From Thermosipho sp. (in: thermotogales) (lineage in GTDB: Bacteria > Thermotogota > Thermotogae > Thermotogales > Fervidobacteriaceae), in NCBI GenBank assembly GCA_030153605.1, contig JASKLO010000001.1, positions 1 through 64,000 of the forward strand: a stretch of 64,000 nucleotides of DNA, written 5' to 3'. The notes beneath the pieces are model-generated. The model did no database searches and had not been told where the DNA came from. It was given only the letters and a program-made list of their open reading frames with translations. The position numbers were made by a program, and so were the translations under genes. Position 1 is the stretch's first letter. The number at the start of each line of letters is the position of its first letter. This document shows positions 8,915 to 51,914 of the stretch, in pieces.

Positions 8915-8945
8915 ATAAAAAAAGGATGGCTTGAAAGCCATCCTT
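8915..8945 (-). terminator. Intrinsic terminator of the marR-ABC exporter operon
   Basis: On the minus strand the sequence AAGGATGGCT, a 4-nt loop and AGCCATCCTT form a perfect 10-bp stem followed by a T7 run. The stem begins within the last codon of the 615-residue ABC half-transporter, whose stop is at 8944-8946. The tract separates this operon from thiI. Confidence 0.9.
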
Positions 8946-10791
8946 AAACATACGCACCTAAAAATTGACTCTTATACAATTCTGCATAAAAGCCATTTTT
9001 AGCCATTAATTCTTTATGAGTACCCTTTTCAATTATCTGACCTTCATTCATTACAAGTATTATGTCAGCATCTACTATAGTTGATAACCTATGAGCAATT
9101 ACAAAATTGGTTCTACTATGCATTAAATTCCTCATTGCTTTTTGTATAAGCTTTTCAGTGAGTGTGTCAACATTACTTGTTGCTTCATCAAGAATCAATA
9201 TGTCAGGATCAGCTATAAAGGCTCTAGCTATTGTAATAAGTTGCTTTTCACCTTGAGAAATATTTGAAGCTTCCTCATTTATGATGGCATCATATCCACC
9301 CGGCAATGCCATAATAAAGTGGTGTGCGTGAGCCTTTTTGGCAGCATCAATAATTTCTTCTTCAGTAGCATTTTCTTTTCCGTAAGCTATATTTTCTTTA
9401 ACTGTTCCATTAAAAAGCCATGTATCTTGAAGTACCATTCCAAAAACTTTTCTCAGACTATCTCTTTTAATTTTTCTTATATCTATTCCATCTACTGTAA
9501 TTCTTCCACCTTGAATTTCATAGAATCTCATTAATAAATTTACAAGGGTTGTTTTTCCAGCACCCGTAGGTCCTACTATTGCAACTGTCTGACCACTTTT
9601 AACTTCAATATTCAAATCTTCAATTAATTTTTTATCAGGTCTATAGCTAAAATAAACGTGTTCAAAATTAACGTCTCCTTCTACCCTTGTAAGTTCAATA
9701 GCATCTGCTGGGTCGGGAATTTCTTCTTCTTCATCCAAAATTTCAAAAACTCTTTCTGCAGCTGCAATAGTTGATTGAATCATATTCATAATATTTGCTA
9801 CTTGAGTAATTGGTTGAGTAAATTGATTGGAATATTGAATAAATGCTTGAACATCTCCTAGTTCAATTGTTCGCTTTGTAACCATTATTCCACCAACTAC
9901 TGCAACAATTACATAACCTAAATTACTGATAAATCTCATTAAAGGCATTGTAATACCTGAAACAAATTGTGCTCTCCAGGCAGCATTATATAAGTCATTG
10001 TTATATTTCTCAAAAACTTTTATACTTTTTTCTTCCTGGTTATACGCTTTAACTACAACAAGTCCTCCAAACATTTCTTCAACATGTCCATTTACATCTC
10101 CCAAGGATTTTTGTTGCATTTTAAAATATTTTTGTGATCTTTTTATTATAAAACTTATTATTATTAAACTAATTGGCAGAATCACAAGAGTAGCTAAGGT
10201 CAATAAAGGACTTATAGTTAACATCATAATAGTAACTCCAACTATAGATACTATTGAGGTTACAAACTGAGTTAAACTCTGATTCAAAGTGTTACTTATC
10301 AGGTCAATATCATTTGTAACTCTACTCAGAATTTCCCCATGAGTTCTAGAATCATAAAATTTTAAAGGAAGTTTTGTCAACTTATCCATTACTTGCGTTC
10401 TTAGTTTTTTAACAATTTTTTGAGAAATTCCAGCCATCATGTATTGCTGAATATACATAAACAAAGAATATAAGCCGTATAAAATCCCAACTTTTATTAA
10501 AATTTGCAAAATTCCATCAAGATCAAGTTTTGCTTTTGGAAAGATTCTTTTTGCAAGAAAACCTTGAAATATTTTAGTTGTAGCTTGACCCAAAATTTTC
10601 GGTGCCATTATATTGAGAACTGTTCCTGTTATTGCAAGACCAAAAATTATGATCAATGGAATAATATATGGTTTTAAATATTTCATTAATCTCAAAAAAG
10701 TTTTTCTAAAATTTTTAGGTTTTTCAAAAGAAACTCTTATAGGTCCGTGGCCTCCACCTGCTCTGCTTGTAGATCTTTTATTTTCACTCAT
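8944..10791 (-). CDS. Heterodimeric ABC exporter, subunit with catalytic Glu (TM288-like)
   Basis: A 615-residue half-transporter with a basic 35-residue N-terminal extension, a membrane domain (about 40-335) and a nucleotide-binding domain. Walker A is GPTGAGKTT near 404, Walker B LILDEATSNVD keeps the catalytic Glu, and the H-loop IAHRLSTI keeps His. The signature is degenerate: ISQGE instead of LSGGQ. Together with the neighbour, which has LSGGQ but lacks Glu and His, this gives one competent and one degenerate ATP site, the arrangement of TM287/288 of Thermotoga maritima. It overlaps the partner by 4 nt (ATGA type). Likely drug or lipid export at the cytoplasmic membrane. Confidence 0.93.
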   Translation of the reverse strand: MSENKRSTSRAGGGHGPIRVSFEKPKNFRKTFLRLMKYLKPYIIPLIIIFGLAITGTVLNIMAPKILGQATTKIFQGFLAKRIFPKAKLDLDGILQILIKVGILYGLYSLFMYIQQYMMAGISQKIVKKLRTQVMDKLTKLPLKFYDSRTHGEILSRVTNDIDLISNTLNQSLTQFVTSIVSIVGVTIMMLTISPLLTLATLVILPISLIIISFIIKRSQKYFKMQQKSLGDVNGHVEEMFGGLVVVKAYNQEEKSIKVFEKYNNDLYNAAWRAQFVSGITMPLMRFISNLGYVIVAVVGGIMVTKRTIELGDVQAFIQYSNQFTQPITQVANIMNMIQSTIAAAERVFEILDEEEEIPDPADAIELTRVEGDVNFEHVYFSYRPDKKLIEDLNIEVKSGQTVAIVGPTGAGKTTLVNLLMRFYEIQGGRITVDGIDIRKIKRDSLRKVFGMVLQDTWLFNGTVKENIAYGKENATEEEIIDAAKKAHAHHFIMALPGGYDAIINEEASNISQGEKQLITIARAFIADPDILILDEATSNVDTLTEKLIQKAMRNLMHSRTNFVIAHRLSTIVDADIILVMNEGQIIEKGTHKELMAKNGFYAELYKSQFLGAYV

Positions 10792-12512
10792 GCTATCTCC
10801 TCCTCTGAAAGCTGAGAAGAAACAATTTCTCTATACACTTGAGATGTTTTCATCAATTCTTTGTGAGTTCCAATTCCTACTATTTTTCCATTATCAAGAA
10901 CAATTATTTTGTCTGAATTCATTATTGTTGCAACTCTTAATGAGACTATAATAACTGTTGAATCCTTTAATTTTTCTCTTAAAGCAAGTCTTACCTTAGA
11001 ATCAGTTTTAAAATCTAATGCTGAAAAACAATCATCAAAAATATAAATATCTTTTTTTCCTACTATTCCCCTTGCTATTGCAAGTCTCTGCTTTTGGCCA
11101 CCTGAAAGATTTGTACCACCCTGAGATACTTCTGTTTTAATACCTTTTGGTAGTTTAGAAACAAATTCCCAAGCTTGTGCTATTTTCAATGCTTCTATTA
11201 TCTCTTCTTCAGTTGCATCATCCTTTCCTATTCTTACATTATCTTCAATAGTTCCAGAAAAAATAACTGGCCTTGAAGGAACCAAAGAAATTCTTTTTCT
11301 TAATTCCTTTTGGGTTATCTTTCTTATATCTACACCATCTATTAATATTTCACCTTCTGAAACATCGTAAAACCTCAATAATAAATTAACCAAAGTACTT
11401 TTTCCCGAACCAGAGCTTCCAATAATTCCTATGAATTCACCTGGATGCGCTTCAAAAGAAATATTTTGTAATGCAGGTTCTTTTGCACCTTCAAAATAAA
11501 ATGTTACATTTTTGAATTCAATGTTTCCTTTTCCTTTTGGCAAAAGAGATTTTTCAGGATCCTTTATTTTTGATTGTGTTGTTAAAACTTCATATACCCT
11601 TTCTGCAGAGGCCGATGCTCTAGGAATAAAGATAAAGATCATTGAAATCATTATAAAAGAAAACAGTATTTGTAATACATACTGCATTACAGCCATTATA
11701 TCCCCTACTTGAAGTGCTCCTTTATCCACTTGAACAGCTCCTATCCAAAACAAAAAGATTATTGTAAAATTCATTATTAACATTATCAATGGAAAAACTA
11801 ATGCAAAAACACGATTTACCTTCAATGCAGTTTGCGTTAAATCTTCATTTGCTTCTTCAAATCTTTGTTTTTCATATTTAGTTTTATTAAATGCTCTTAT
11901 TACCCGAACACCAGTTAAATTTTCCCTTAATATCCTATTTATTCTATCTATCTTTTTTTGCATTGACCTAAAAAGTGGCATTGTGTATTTTGCAATAAAA
12001 TATACTGCTACAGACATTACTGGAATAGCAACTAGCAAAACCATTGTAAGTTTCGGGCTTTTTGAAATAGCCATTATTGTACCACCTATTGCAGTTACCG
12101 GAGCCAAAGCTACCAATCTTAAAAGCATAAAAACAACCATTTGAATTTGAGTTATATCATTAGTATTTCTAGTAATTAGAGTTGAAGTCCCAAATTTATC
12201 TATTTCATATAGTGAAAAATTCATTACTTTTTCAAACACCATACTTCTCAAATCTTTTCCAAATAACATAGCAACTTTCGCTGCAAAATAAGTTGAAATA
12301 ATGGCTGATAAAATGTTTAACAATGTAACAAAAAGCATTTTTCCACCAACACTTAAAATATAGTCTACATCCCCTCTAGTGACTCCTTTATTTACAATGT
12401 CTCCCATTAAATCTGGTAAGTATAAATTTAACAGGCCCTGAAAGGTAACAAAAGTTATTGCCAAAATTATGAAAAATGTATACTTTTTAAGATACTTAAA
12501 TAGTTTCATCAT
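10788..12512 (-). CDS. Heterodimeric ABC exporter, degenerate-site subunit (TM287-like)
   Basis: A 574-residue half-transporter: membrane domain to about residue 310, then Walker A GSSGSGKST near 363, intact signature LSGGQKQR near 464, and Walker B IYIFDDCFSALDF with Asp instead of Glu. The H-loop reads VSLRVATI, so Leu stands where His is expected. Its own Walker A/B site should therefore bind ATP but hydrolyse poorly, while its LSGGQ completes the active site of the partner. The gene starts inside the 3' end of marR (17-nt overlap), so regulator and pump are one operon. Confidence 0.93.
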   Translation of the reverse strand: MMKLFKYLKKYTFFIILAITFVTFQGLLNLYLPDLMGDIVNKGVTRGDVDYILSVGGKMLFVTLLNILSAIISTYFAAKVAMLFGKDLRSMVFEKVMNFSLYEIDKFGTSTLITRNTNDITQIQMVVFMLLRLVALAPVTAIGGTIMAISKSPKLTMVLLVAIPVMSVAVYFIAKYTMPLFRSMQKKIDRINRILRENLTGVRVIRAFNKTKYEKQRFEEANEDLTQTALKVNRVFALVFPLIMLIMNFTIIFLFWIGAVQVDKGALQVGDIMAVMQYVLQILFSFIMISMIFIFIPRASASAERVYEVLTTQSKIKDPEKSLLPKGKGNIEFKNVTFYFEGAKEPALQNISFEAHPGEFIGIIGSSGSGKSTLVNLLLRFYDVSEGEILIDGVDIRKITQKELRKRISLVPSRPVIFSGTIEDNVRIGKDDATEEEIIEALKIAQAWEFVSKLPKGIKTEVSQGGTNLSGGQKQRLAIARGIVGKKDIYIFDDCFSALDFKTDSKVRLALREKLKDSTVIIVSLRVATIMNSDKIIVLDNGKIVGIGTHKELMKTSQVYREIVSSQLSEEEIA

Positions 12513-12942
12513 TTTTCATCGCCTCCAGGTTTTTTAGCATTTTATTCAATAGATTTTTTAATGTTTCTATTTCTTCTTCACTAAAATTCTTTAAACTTTC
12601 TTTTTCAAAAATCTTCAATTTTCCTAATATTTTATCAATTAAATTATTAGCTTTCTCTGTCAAAAAAACTTTTAACTCTCTTTTATCTTTTTCATTTTTT
12701 TCTCTTTTTATTAATCCAACTTTTTCCATTCTTTTAATCATAATAGCTACAGTTGAAGGAAAAACTTTTAATTTTTCTGCAATTTCAATTTGAGATATTC
12801 CAGGATTTTTTGAAATTATAAAAAGCATTGGAATTTGACCGGGATGCACATGAAAAGCTTCTAATTCATTTTTTAAAATTTGAAATTTAACTTTTCCAAA
12901 TTCATTTAACAGCAAAAAAACTTCTGAAAATTCACGTTTCAA
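12496..12942 (-). CDS. MarR-family transcriptional regulator
   Basis: A 148-residue winged-helix repressor, probably controlling its own operon and the downstream exporter. The MarR fold is visible from PGQIPMLFIISKNPGISQIEIAEKL through PSTVAIMIKRMEKVGLI to the wing RREKNEKDKRELKVFLT. The start is TTG 12942 behind GAGGTGAGAGAC. A longer frame back to an ATG at 12996 is unlikely because that stretch holds the promoter -10 and the presumed transcription start. Ligand binding is by family analogy; members commonly respond to phenolic or hydrophobic compounds. Confidence 0.9.
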   Translation of the reverse strand: MKREFSEVFLLLNEFGKVKFQILKNELEAFHVHPGQIPMLFIISKNPGISQIEIAEKLKVFPSTVAIMIKRMEKVGLIKREKNEKDKRELKVFLTEKANNLIDKILGKLKIFEKESLKNFSEEEIETLKNLLNKMLKNLEAMKNDETI

Positions 12943-12968: not shown

Positions 12969-12990
12969 AATAGTTTGACATAAAACTATT
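12969..12990. promoter_or_regulatory. Candidate MarR operator (22-bp dyad)
   Basis: Two perfect 8-bp arms, AATAGTTT and AAACTATT, are separated by 6 bp (GACATA). The dyad overlaps the -10 box and the predicted start of marR transcription, so binding of the MarR product would block RNA polymerase. A second perfect repeat (TTTGACATAA at 12974-12983 and TTATGTCAAA at 13007-13016) shares one arm region and spans the whole promoter. Binding is inferred from symmetry and position. Confidence 0.6.
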
Positions 12991-13015
12991 ATACATCTAA
13001 TTAAAATTATGTCAA
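12988..13015 (-). promoter_or_regulatory. Promoter of the marR-ABC exporter operon
   Basis: On the minus strand a perfect TTGACA (-35) and a perfect TATAAT (-10) are separated by 16 bp. The start of transcription would fall near 12981. The -35 lies directly against the T run of the preceding pepF terminator. Confidence 0.85.
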
Positions 13016-13039
13016 AAAAAGATGGCCTAAAGGCCATCT
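13013..13039 (-). terminator. Intrinsic terminator of the MATE-pepF operon
   Basis: The minus strand reads AGATGGCC, loop TTTA, GGCCATCT, then T6-7: an 8-bp stem with a strong U tract. The T tract merges into the marR -35 box (TTTTTTTGACA), leaving no spacer between the two transcription units. Confidence 0.9.
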
Positions 13040-13064: not shown

Positions 13065-14780
13065 TTACTTTTCAAGTTCTTCTATTCTGTGTTTTACAAA
13101 ATCAACAATCTCTCCTATGTAAGATTCGGAAAAATCTAATTTTATTCCGGCTACTTCATATACCTTATCTATTGGTAATTTATAACCGGTTTTCAAGAAG
13201 TTAATATAGTTTTCTATTGTTTTTTCAGGATTTTCCAAATAATTTTTGTATATAGACAAAGCACCCAATTGAGCAATGCCATATTCAATATAATAAAACG
13301 GAACTTGGAAAATGTGAAGTTGGAACAACCATCTGTATCTTTTTTCTTCATCAAGTGATGCCCAATCAACACCTTGATTGAATTTGTCCATTAATTTTCC
13401 AAAATAATTAGCTCTTTCTTCTGGAGTATGGTCTGGGTTTGTATATATCCAATGTTGAAAAGCATCTACAGTCATACACCACGGTAAAAATAGAACAGCA
13501 TTTTCAAGTTCTTCTATCATTGCCTTTCTAAAATCTTCTTCATCTTTATAATATTCATTCCAATAATGTAATGTTAAAAGTTCCATACTCATTGAAGCAA
13601 GTTCATTAATTTCTGAACGCGAAGGTCTATAATATATTATTGGAATATTTACTGTTTCAAATGTATGCATAGCATGTCCAGATTCATGTAGTAATGTTCT
13701 TACGTCGCTGCTCTGTCCTGTAGCATTCATAAAAATAAATGGAGCACCAGTTTCAGGTAAAGGATAATTGTATCCTCCAGGTGCCTTTCCTTTTCGATTT
13801 TCTAAATCCAATAACCCTGAATTCTTCATCAATTCTAATCTTTCACCGAAAAGAGGTTTAACTTTTCCTAAAACTCTAATAGCTTTATCCACAAACTCAT
13901 CAATTGTATTAAATGGTTTTAAAACTTTTCCATCTACATCTACAGATCTATCCCATGGTCTTAAAGTATCTATTCTTAATTTCTTAGCCCTTTTTTCCAT
14001 ACGTTCTTTGAAAAAGGGCATAACTTTTTTCTCAACTGACTCGTGAAATTTTAAAACATCTTCAACCGTATACTCTGTTCTACCTTTCAATTCATGCATG
14101 TAATCTCTATAATTTTCAAAACCCGCATTCTTTGCTTGTTTTATTCTCAAGTCTTTTAACTCATCAAAAATATTGTTAAATTCATCCTTTTTTGATAATA
14201 TCCCTTCAAATCTTTTTCTCCAGGCCAATTCTCTAGTTTCTCTGTCTGGAGATTTTAAATATGGTACTAACTGTTGAAGTGTTTTTTCTTCACCTCTAAA
14301 TTTAACTGTTATTGCTCCAAAAATAGCTCCATATTTATTTGCAATTTTTCTTTCTTCTATCTGCAAAGGAATGTTTTCTTCTTTGAATAACTCTATATTT
14401 TTAGATATAATTTTTATCATATGCTTATACTCATCAGAAATATTTTTCGAAATAGGTGAATCATATATTTTCTTTTCAAGTTTTACTGAATATGGTTTGG
14501 CTTTTGAAACAATATTTGCAAAATAGTCGTTAAACTTTTCAGCATACTCTTTTTTATCAGCAAACCTTGTCATATTGATGTATCTCCAGCCCATTTCTTC
14601 ACGGATAATGTCTTCCAACTCTGTAAATCTCTCAACAATTTCAATTAAATCTTTTTCATTTTCAATTTTAATATTAATAAGTTCATTTAATTTTGCAATA
14701 ATTGCATCAGCATCAGTTGAATCTAAATCTTTGTAAAACCTTCTTTCTTTCTTTTTTACCTTTTCACTCGTGTAAATCAT
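13065..14780 (-). CDS. pepF: M3-family oligoendopeptidase F
   Basis: A 571-residue cytoplasmic zinc metallopeptidase that trims short peptides. The M3 active site is LLHESGHAMHTFE (HExxH) near residue 365, with the third ligand glutamate expected in the following helix (SRSEINELASMSME). The N-terminal half is the helical PepF/M3 domain. RBS GGGGGG precedes ATG 14780. The start overlaps the stop of the MATE gene in an ATGA junction, so translation is coupled. A strong terminator follows the gene. Confidence 0.93.
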   Translation of the reverse strand: MIYTSEKVKKKERRFYKDLDSTDADAIIAKLNELINIKIENEKDLIEIVERFTELEDIIREEMGWRYINMTRFADKKEYAEKFNDYFANIVSKAKPYSVKLEKKIYDSPISKNISDEYKHMIKIISKNIELFKEENIPLQIEERKIANKYGAIFGAITVKFRGEEKTLQQLVPYLKSPDRETRELAWRKRFEGILSKKDEFNNIFDELKDLRIKQAKNAGFENYRDYMHELKGRTEYTVEDVLKFHESVEKKVMPFFKERMEKRAKKLRIDTLRPWDRSVDVDGKVLKPFNTIDEFVDKAIRVLGKVKPLFGERLELMKNSGLLDLENRKGKAPGGYNYPLPETGAPFIFMNATGQSSDVRTLLHESGHAMHTFETVNIPIIYYRPSRSEINELASMSMELLTLHYWNEYYKDEEDFRKAMIEELENAVLFLPWCMTVDAFQHWIYTNPDHTPEERANYFGKLMDKFNQGVDWASLDEEKRYRWLFQLHIFQVPFYYIEYGIAQLGALSIYKNYLENPEKTIENYINFLKTGYKLPIDKVYEVAGIKLDFSESYIGEIVDFVKHRIEELEK

Positions 14781-16153
14781 AATTTCCCCCCTTTATCTTG
14801 AATAATAGACTTTTTCCAATTAGCAAACTTAACAAACAACCAAGCAAGAATTAAAGCAGAAATATTGCTTATTATCATAGCAATAAATAATCCTTTAAAA
14901 CCAAAACGCGATGATAAAATAGCTATCAAAGGCACTCTAATTCCCCAAAGCCTTGTAATATCAACTATCATAGATAAATCTGTACGTCCAGCACCTATTA
15001 ATGTATTGGTAAAAACAGTCATAGATGTGAAAAAAGGAAGTGAAAAAGAAACAAATTTAAAAAATAAATTTCCGACTTGGATTACTTCGGGATCATTAAT
15101 AAAAAACTGTGTTAAATTACCTCCAAAGAAAAAAGTAAGCACACTTAAAGAAAAGACAATTGAAAAATTAGTAATAAAAGCTACTTTAACTGTCCTTTCT
15201 GCATTTTTAATATCATTAGCACCTAAGAATTGGCCTATCATTGTCGTTACTGAACTTCCAATCCCAAATGATATCATCGTAATGAAATTAATTATTCTAT
15301 TTCCAACTCCATATGCACTGATAACAGTTGGTCCAAAACTTGAAACAAACCTCATAATAACTACAAAACCTAAAGAAGTAAAAGTCATACTTATAGAACC
15401 AGGAAGACCTATCCTAAAAACCTTCTTAATTAAATTCAAATCAGGTATCAAACATTTTAGAGTGATTTTAAAACCTCTTTTTCCAGTAAACAAATGATTA
15501 AGAGATATAACTGCAGCCAAAATTCTGGCAATGGTTGTAGCTATAGCAGCTCCGTTCACTCCCATTTTTGGAAAGCCGAGCAATCCAAAAATTAAAATTG
15601 GATCCAAGATTATATTCAATATAGTTGAGATAAACATTATATTTAAAGTAAATTTTGAATCTCCCCAACCTCTCAAAATAGAAGAAGCTGAATTAAAAAT
15701 AAAACCAAATGGAAGCCCAAGCATTATTAGATTAAAATAAGAAACTGCATATTTAATCACTTCCTTACTTTCTTCACCTGCAATTAAAGTAATTACAGGT
15801 CGAGATACCATTATTCCAACTAATGAAAGTACTATACCAAAAATTATTGAAATCAATAAAACTTGCCCAGCGGATTTTTTAGCATTTTTTTCATCTTTAG
15901 CTCCAGTAAATTGAGCAACTAAAGTTACACCTGCTTGGGTAAAACCAATTGACAATGAAATAAAAACAAAGATCAAAGGCCAAACAATAGTAGGAGCCGA
16001 AAATTCAATTTTTCCCAATTTCCCTAAAAAGTAAGCATCAACAGCATTATAAAGAGTTTGCATTAGATTTGAAATAACTATTGGCCAACTTAAAAGAAAT
16101 AACGAAGAAAATATTCCTCTATTAAAAACATTAACTCTGTTTTTATGATCCAC
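14777..16153 (-). CDS. MATE-family multidrug/cation antiporter
   Basis: A 458-residue membrane protein with about twelve helices in two related halves. It has the typical N-terminal MATE phrases: WPIVISNLMQTLYNAVDAYF near residue 22, SIGFTQAGVTLVAQ, and GLPFGFIFNSASSILRGWG. Such pumps exchange Na+ or H+ for organic cations. The start is GTG 16153 behind GGAGGGGATTTT; an ATG 45 nt upstream would add residues with no RBS. Promoter elements are seen at 16189-16216. It heads a two-gene operon with pepF. Confidence 0.9.
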   Translation of the reverse strand: MDHKNRVNVFNRGIFSSLFLLSWPIVISNLMQTLYNAVDAYFLGKLGKIEFSAPTIVWPLIFVFISLSIGFTQAGVTLVAQFTGAKDEKNAKKSAGQVLLISIIFGIVLSLVGIMVSRPVITLIAGEESKEVIKYAVSYFNLIMLGLPFGFIFNSASSILRGWGDSKFTLNIMFISTILNIILDPILIFGLLGFPKMGVNGAAIATTIARILAAVISLNHLFTGKRGFKITLKCLIPDLNLIKKVFRIGLPGSISMTFTSLGFVVIMRFVSSFGPTVISAYGVGNRIINFITMISFGIGSSVTTMIGQFLGANDIKNAERTVKVAFITNFSIVFSLSVLTFFFGGNLTQFFINDPEVIQVGNLFFKFVSFSLPFFTSMTVFTNTLIGAGRTDLSMIVDITRLWGIRVPLIAILSSRFGFKGLFIAMIISNISALILAWLFVKFANWKKSIIQDKGGKL

Positions 16154-16188
16154 AAAATCCCCTCCAAATTTTATTCGTTTTCCTAACA

Positions 16189-16216
16189 ATTTTATCATAA
16201 TTTATGTTATAATCAA
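16189..16216 (-). promoter_or_regulatory. Promoter of the MATE-pepF operon
   Basis: Minus strand: TTGATT (-35), 16 bp, then TGA-TAAAAT, an extended -10. The -35 overlaps the -10 of the divergent aldo/keto reductase promoter. Confidence 0.55.
16205..16213 (+). promoter_or_regulatory. Extended -10 of the aldo/keto reductase-aminopeptidase operon
   Basis: TGT-TATAAT at 16205-16213 is an extended -10 with no good -35. It shares bases with the -35 of the divergent MATE promoter, so the two promoters should interfere with each other. Confidence 0.55.
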
Positions 16217-51708: not shown

Positions 51709-51785
<77 letters not shown>

Positions 51786-51824
51786 ACGTATAAATCTATA
51801 ACTTTAAAAATATTATTTTTCTAG

Positions 51825-51914
51825 TGGTGCCGGGGATCGGACTCGAACCGACACGGAGGTGTAACCCCCAGCGGATTTTAAGTCCGCTGCGTCTCCCAAT
51901 TCCGCCACCCCGGC
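51825..51914 (-). tRNA. tRNA-Leu (anticodon TAA)
   Basis: A 90-nt class II tRNA with long variable arm and encoded CCA. Acceptor stem GCCGGGG/CCCCGGC, anticodon stem GCGGA/TCCGC with loop CTTAAAA, TTCGAGT T-loop. Cotranscribed with tRNA-fMet downstream. Confidence 0.95.

Follow-up and report, generated by a model that had tools for sequence, protein, structure and literature searches.

A candidate two-box MarR operator at the promoter of a marR-ABC exporter operon in Thermosipho, with a fixed 15-bp register in two families of Thermotogota

Introduction

The regulators that come closest to the system described here are SlyA, ZitR/AdcR, QacR and MepR, the last of which we take to be a member of the MarR family. 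As described in excerpts of the published accounts, SlyA is associated with a 12-bp palindrome of the form TTA-N6-TAA, with TTAGCAAGCTAA as the proposed site (PMC5797941), and in the ZitR/AdcR systems of lactococci and streptococci two imperfect TTAACYRGTTAA palindromes overlap the -35 and the -10 of one promoter (PMC6372160). Part of a further account has MepR of Staphylococcus aureus repressing itself and the drug pump mepA, probably as one or two dimers over the -35/-10 region or the start site (PMC3617543), and at QacR IR1 two dimers are placed on opposite sides of ~28 bp over a drug-pump start site (excerpts of PMC3617543 and PMC6018408). Among the literature matches listed, the titles and abstract openings contained no report pointing to the operator that is the subject of this paper.

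The DNA analyzed was a stretch of 64,000 nucleotides from Thermosipho sp. (contig JASKLO010000001.1 of assembly GCA_030153605.1, positions 1 to 64,000), referred to as the window. Upstream of its marR gene lies a well-defined candidate operator that two families of thermophiles have in common. The regulator concerned is that of a multidrug-type exporter similar to TM287/288, whose structure has been studied. Relatives were drawn from the same family (f1, 20 genomes) and a second family (f2, 11 genomes), and the comparison set comprised 32 sites.

Results

Gene content of the locus

All genes of the locus are on the minus strand, and their order along transcription is a MATE transporter (14777-16198), an M3 oligoendopeptidase (13065-14780), the MarR-family regulator (12496-12942; Pfam PF01047 at 55.9 bits, cut-off 24.6) and two ABC exporter halves, of which half 1 (TM287-like, 10788-12512) overlaps marR and is followed by half 2 (TM288-like, 8944-10791). 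PDB profile matches of the MarR product include SlyA proteins. For exporter half 2 the best PDB match was 3qf4 chain B (TM_0288), and half 1 matched 3qf4 chain A at 503 bits, fourth behind 8wcw_A, 9iqe_A and 9kwi_A; we take 3qf4 to be the TM287/288 heterodimeric ABC exporter. The marR start in the list of open reading frames (ATG 12996) falls inside the operator, and the likely start, judging from the ribosome site AGGTGAG (12953-12947) and in agreement with the relative L006, is TTG 12942. The MATE and M3 oligoendopeptidase genes share four bases (14777-14780), an overlap that may couple translation of exporter and peptidase. Elsewhere in the window, two adjacent tRNA genes, Met (cat) and Leu (taa), occupy 51709-51914 on the minus strand.

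Anatomy of the promoter region

Every element named in the first-pass annotation of this DNA is present in the sequence, and all lie on the minus strand. The marR promoter comprises a -35 box TTGACA (13010-13015) and a -10 box TATAAT (12988-12993) separated by 16 bp, with 12/12 matches to the consensus and a transcription start predicted from the -10 box at ~12981; as that annotation had it, the promoter lies directly against the T run of the preceding intrinsic terminator, which merges into the -35 box. The terminator stem-loop (13020-13039) reads AGATGGCC-TTTA-GGCCATCT from 13039 to 13020, is followed by TTTTTTGACA, and as folded RNA reaches -13.1 kcal/mol (z -3.7). Its assignment to pepF was mistaken, the upstream gene scoring 636 bits against TIGR02289 'M3_not_pepF' (cut-off 442) and only 124 bits against the pepF model (cut-off 490).

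A perfect TTGACA occurred within the scanned range of 18 of the 20 f1 sites. Among nine Thermosipho-type promoters (genera g1, g4 and g5), a scripted search detected a hairpin and T run ending at most 15 bp from the -35 in L005, L007, L009, L010, L011 and L013; the hairpins of L006 and L008 were missed by the script and are visible by eye, and L012 has none near the -35. Since the peptidase gene lies upstream of marR only in the window and in L006, this packing of terminator and promoter recurs with different neighbours. Within the window, one of nine scripted terminators has a promoter this near. The arrangement seems to be a compact one in which the promoter is also insulated.

Two operator boxes and the dyad

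Relatives carry, upstream of marR, a recurrent near-palindrome of 12 bp that reads TTATACGTATAA in f1 and TTAGACGTCTAA in f2; both consensus boxes fit TTA-N6-TAA. The window carries two copies on the minus strand: box 1, with halves TTAGAT and GTATAA (TTAGATGTATAA, 12989-13000), and box 2, with halves TTTTAT and GTCAAA (TTTTATGTCAAA, 12974-12985), which score 16.8 and 19.7 bits, respectively, when left out of the matrix. Together they form a 27-bp operator, TTAGATGTATAA-TAG-TTTTATGTCAAA (13000-12974), with 3 bp between the copies and box centres 15 bp apart, box 1 overlying the -10 and box 2 the predicted +1 of marR's own promoter. Both copies are degenerate (18/24 matches to the consensus); box 1 fits TTA-N6-TAA, and box 2 has neither TTA nor TAA at its ends.

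A 22-bp dyad over the -10 and start site had been reported at first pass, and it is indeed present at 12990-12969 (AATAGTTT-TATGTC-AAACTATT), extending over the last part of the -10 and the predicted +1, but it amounts only to box 2, its core, plus flanks and is thus one part of a two-box operator. Several relatives retain the flank CTATT. The same reading had left room for two dimers, and the conserved boxes do provide it, although the second site is the box centred 15 bp upstream and overlapping the -10 instead of a wider repeat around the promoter. The unit is better described as two 12-bp SlyA-like boxes than as the dyads originally proposed. In the AT-rich DNA of the window bare dyads are not rare: there are 10 with perfect 8-bp arms around a 6-bp spacer, and eight first-order Markov sequences contain 4.75 on average. 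It is conservation that makes the dyads credible.

Ten T residues follow the dyad, which folds at -3.7 kcal/mol, and the two together could be read as a second, back-up terminator or a leader attenuator acting as RNA. The dyad was rejected as an RNA element on account of its weak fold (z -1.9); moreover, marR transcripts would begin inside the dyad, and L007 and L010 are without the T run while the dyad stays, leaving this reading extremely improbable.

Conservation and spacing of the boxes

A marR match was found in all 20 f1 genomes, and the marR-ABC half 1 order was intact in 19 of the 20 loci, the twentieth stopping at a contig end. In leave-one-out scoring, both boxes reached at least 9.5 bits in 18 of the 20 f1 sites and at least 11 bits in all 11 f2 sites, counts in which duplicate loci of the same genomes entered once and which, the sequences of a family being related, do not represent many independent events. 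The array and its register were the same in all of these, so that the site is conserved in related species, as the first-pass annotation had expected of a real operator; the other two f1 sites, both from genus g3 (L019 and L020), keep box 2 only, with box 1 at -12.1 and -18.6 bits. G021 has a box 1 of 10.9 bits and a poor box 2 (-1.5), and L007 and L017 carry a third box at the same 15-bp spacing (12.8 and 18.6 bits). Across eight Thermosipho-type promoters, mean column identity was 0.89 within the 27-bp operator versus 0.51 further upstream and 0.57 downstream. When all positions on both strands were scored with a matrix built from the 11 f2 sites alone, the window's 27-bp site came top, at 14.1 versus 6.8 for the best match elsewhere.

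With the f2 box matrix applied to the 16 f1 upstream regions left after close relatives had been dropped from the 20, 15 bp was the favoured spacing (z 26.2, versus at most z 12.5 for other spacings from 6 to 40 bp); smaller peaks at 16-17 and 30-32 bp probably reflect the -35 box and the third boxes. The spacing bears directly on a simpler reading, in which one dimer on the box 2 dyad is the whole operator and box 1 is promoter sequence that resembles a box by chance. Box 1 does share sequence with the -10 (GTATAAT), the g3 promoters and those of genus g14 described below have one clear box, and one dimer sitting on the start site would be enough for repression. A chance resemblance to the -10 accounts poorly, however, for a spacing with a z of 26 or for three boxes at 15-bp intervals in L007 and L017, and in Fervidobacterium-type and f2 promoters the -10, as located by eye, falls upstream of box 1 or on its outer edge, without loss of the 15-bp register. 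We therefore regard a one-box operator as unlikely, while giving it some weight, and favour the two-box array.

The 15-bp pair was found in none of 19 more distant MarR homologues (L083-L097 and L045-L048), for which the best pair scored 1.4 bits; the array thus belongs to near orthologues and not to the MarR proteins of the phylum at large. One of these distant homologues, in a contig labelled Spirochaetaceae (L048, DBTK01000052.1), has a lone strong box upstream (18.4 bits). The pair does occur, with a score of 20.0, in L038 (JAPWUU010000009.1), a contig labelled Candidatus Caldatribacterium that carries marR-ABC-ABC with two boxes at 15 bp, through either transfer or misbinning.

The wide inverted repeat

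The first-pass annotation had also described a wide 10-bp inverted repeat bracketing the promoter (12974-13016, minus strand). Its arms, TTTGACATAA (13016-13007) and TTATGTCAAA (12983-12974), are perfect, but they are not conserved, as the -35 arm is identical at 10/10 positions only in this genome; in the 31 further sites compared, the best match at the -35 reaches no more than 8/10, the -35 assignment itself being uncertain in several f2 sites. The window has 12 repeats with 10-bp arms and a spacer of 10-30 bp, where Markov sequences give 8.0. As a conserved site the repeat was rejected on these near-chance counts and on an arm identity private to this genome. The remark that one arm reuses the -35 in reverse was accurate: TTGACA is the reverse complement of the box word TGTCAA, and for this reason the repeat comes largely free. 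What catches the eye is thus explained by promoter and operator words being reverse complements, and the repeat is probably, to judge from these words, a by-product of a -35 that resembles half a box.

In addition to its perfect arms, a functional second site bracketing the promoter could call on the -35 arm (13007-13016) as a weak third box of 7.8 bits, and similar weak scores (5.1-9.4 bits) occur at the -35 in the Thermosipho-type promoters L009, L012 and L013. This arm nevertheless lies 16 bp upstream of box 1 and so outside the 15-bp register, and with near-chance numbers, poor identity at the other sites and the reverse complementarity of the two words to account for it, such a site is very improbable. 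A weak extra contact at the -35 arm may occur alongside the two-box operator.

Searches in the genome and across the phylum

A sequence profile, R1, was built from 23 of the 32 site sequences. Among the candidates scored (150 first-look candidates per f1 genome), R1 recovered the marR promoter in 20/20 f1 genomes and matched one other place at E <= 0.1 (G016, E 0.054). In a search of 103 phylum genomes, with 66 candidates scored per genome, 42 genomes had a match at E <= 0.05: in all 20 f1 and 11 f2 genomes it fell at marR, in G068 at a copy of marR and in G099 at the promoter of the exporter, and the remaining nine, from families f6, f8 and f10, matched weakly (best E per genome 0.009-0.045). 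All matches at E <= 0.01 among these candidates were at marR promoters, bar one in G061 (E 0.009), and the candidates scored in seven g13 genomes, in which no close orthologue of marR was detected, included none. Double sites away from marR are therefore scarce, with the qualification that the search could miss single-box targets; it gave no match in G097, G098 or G021. Eight f1/f2 sites held out of the training set were recovered, relatives of training members though they are.

Two further sites deserve mention. The sequence upstream of marR in L067 (G068:C1:1276760-1277119) is identical at 239/240 bases to that of a g4 locus (L010) despite belonging to another family, which indicates horizontal transfer or contamination. 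The f2 genome G079 has a second double-box-like match away from marR and near a contig end (G079:C2:136-164, E 0.014).

The proposal that the dyad be sought elsewhere in the genome and at related loci had a divided outcome: the boxes recur at related marR loci, and the only exact copy of the dyad pattern elsewhere in its own genome is at C46:12606, within a coding sequence. Of the four loci from the dyad search, the two for which open reading frames were listed (L002 and L003) have their sites inside coding sequences, and among nine loci inspected for weak profile matches in this genome (E 0.9 and above), several of them inside open reading frames, none was accepted as a target. One weak palindromic match, at C20:1883-1907 (L101), lies between genes that by eye are Fur/PerR-like and ABC ATPase-like and is possibly that regulator's own operator.

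Relatives in which marR and the exporter are apart

In all three g14 genomes (G099, G097 and G098) the contig with the marR orthologue is not the one with the exporter. The gene after marR in G099 (L144) and G097 (L145) encodes an RND efflux permease (PF00873) in place of the ABC pair, which makes the separation from the exporter genuine; the G098 copy of marR is truncated at a contig end. A box was nonetheless present at both promoters, with one clear box each: upstream of marR it scored 16.7, 14.2 and 16.0 bits in G099, G097 and G098 (P <0.0005, 0.0025 and <0.0005, respectively), and upstream of the exporter 18.7, 20.3 and 20.3 bits (0 of 2000 randomised sequences in each case). The exporter promoter of G099 was the only R1 match in that genome at E <= 0.05 among the candidates scored.

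Six exporter homologues from g12 and g13 served as a contrast, a weak one in that they are 42-43% identical and may be paralogues and that the 200 bp upstream are coding in g13; within those 200 bp the scores were -7 to -10 (P 0.82-0.93), and no close marR orthologue was found in these genera (best E 1.8e-12 to 9.7e-15). Extending the search to 1500 bp upstream of the six loci gave no operator-strength box (best 7.2 bits, P 0.056-0.86), and three of the loci share a borderline site. The g13 exporter is preceded by a PadR-type regulator gene running up to the exporter (PF03551; tested in L138, G090:C1, 974-1498), so that the same kind of pump may stand under a different regulator family there, PadR-type as opposed to MarR.

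The separated g14 loci also bear on the identity of the regulator. Palindromes of this sort suit several winged-helix families, and the pairing of MarR with the boxes is itself read from sequence, so that another regulator might be the one that uses them. Such a regulator would have to account for R1 matches at E <= 0.01 that, among the candidates scored in 103 genomes, fall at marR promoters with the single exception in G061, for their absence among those scored in the seven g13 genomes, which yielded no close marR orthologue, and for a box at each promoter when marR and exporter are separated. We consider it improbable and retain this MarR, with which the boxes co-occur, as the likely regulator.

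Discussion

The region is very probably, as far as sequence comparison can tell, the operator-promoter of the marR-ABC exporter operon, at which MarR would repress its own synthesis through one dimer or a pair on two boxes. The core proposal of the first-pass annotation, an autoregulatory MarR operator with room for one or two dimers, is well supported because of the conservation of the array and because of the relatives in which marR stands apart from the exporter. We infer MarR binding, a stoichiometry of two dimers, repression and induction along the following lines. The MarR protein made from the first gene would bind as a dimer to each 12-bp box; 15 bp correspond to ~1.4 turns, or ~154 degrees at 10.5 bp per turn, which would place two dimers on nearly opposite faces of the DNA. 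A dimer on box 1 would bury the -10 and one on box 2 the start site, so that occupation of either or both should block RNA polymerase and repression would extend over the whole operon of marR and the two exporter genes. Release of MarR, and with it expression of the pump, would be brought about by a ligand, probably one of the pump's substrates, and the terminator directly upstream would insulate the promoter from transcription of the peptidase gene. Two dimers would not be obligatory, because g3 promoters are without box 1, G021 has a poor box 2 and g14 promoters have one clear box.

More tentatively, and as a possibility that we hold open to either outcome, the MarR subfamily of two Thermotogota families may bind cooperatively, two dimers at a time and sometimes three, held 15 bp apart on alternating sides of the DNA. 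On this view the register survived changes in box sequence, in promoter position and in the genes upstream, and in one lineage the regulator moved beside an RND pump with the ABC pump kept as a distant target. The operator lends itself to testing whether MarR dimers cooperate by way of a constant 15-bp phase, and how a regulator passes from one pump to another with its box retained.

The exporter pair compares with TM287/288 as a heterodimeric ABC pair whose halves resemble chains A and B of 3qf4; half 1 is only 42-43% identical to the g12/g13 homologues, upstream of which the scans gave no operator-strength box. With SlyA and other MarR-family operators the site shares the TTA-N6-TAA box format, and the marR product is MarR-family by Pfam; it differs in having two boxes in a fixed 15-bp register around a core of TTATACGTATAA or TTAGACGTCTAA, and in an own box 2 that is off TTA/TAA at both ends. 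ZitR/AdcR, also of the MarR superfamily, likewise has two palindromes over one promoter, but belongs to a zinc-responsive uptake system. MepR is similar as a repressor of itself and a drug pump, whereas its pump gene has its own promoter and its motif is GTTAG. QacR offers the parallel of two dimers on opposite sides of the DNA over a start site, as proposed here, although it is a TetR family protein on one extended palindrome and not on two repeated boxes. Set against these systems, the operator is ordinary in kind, and its interesting details are the fixed register and the re-wiring in g14.
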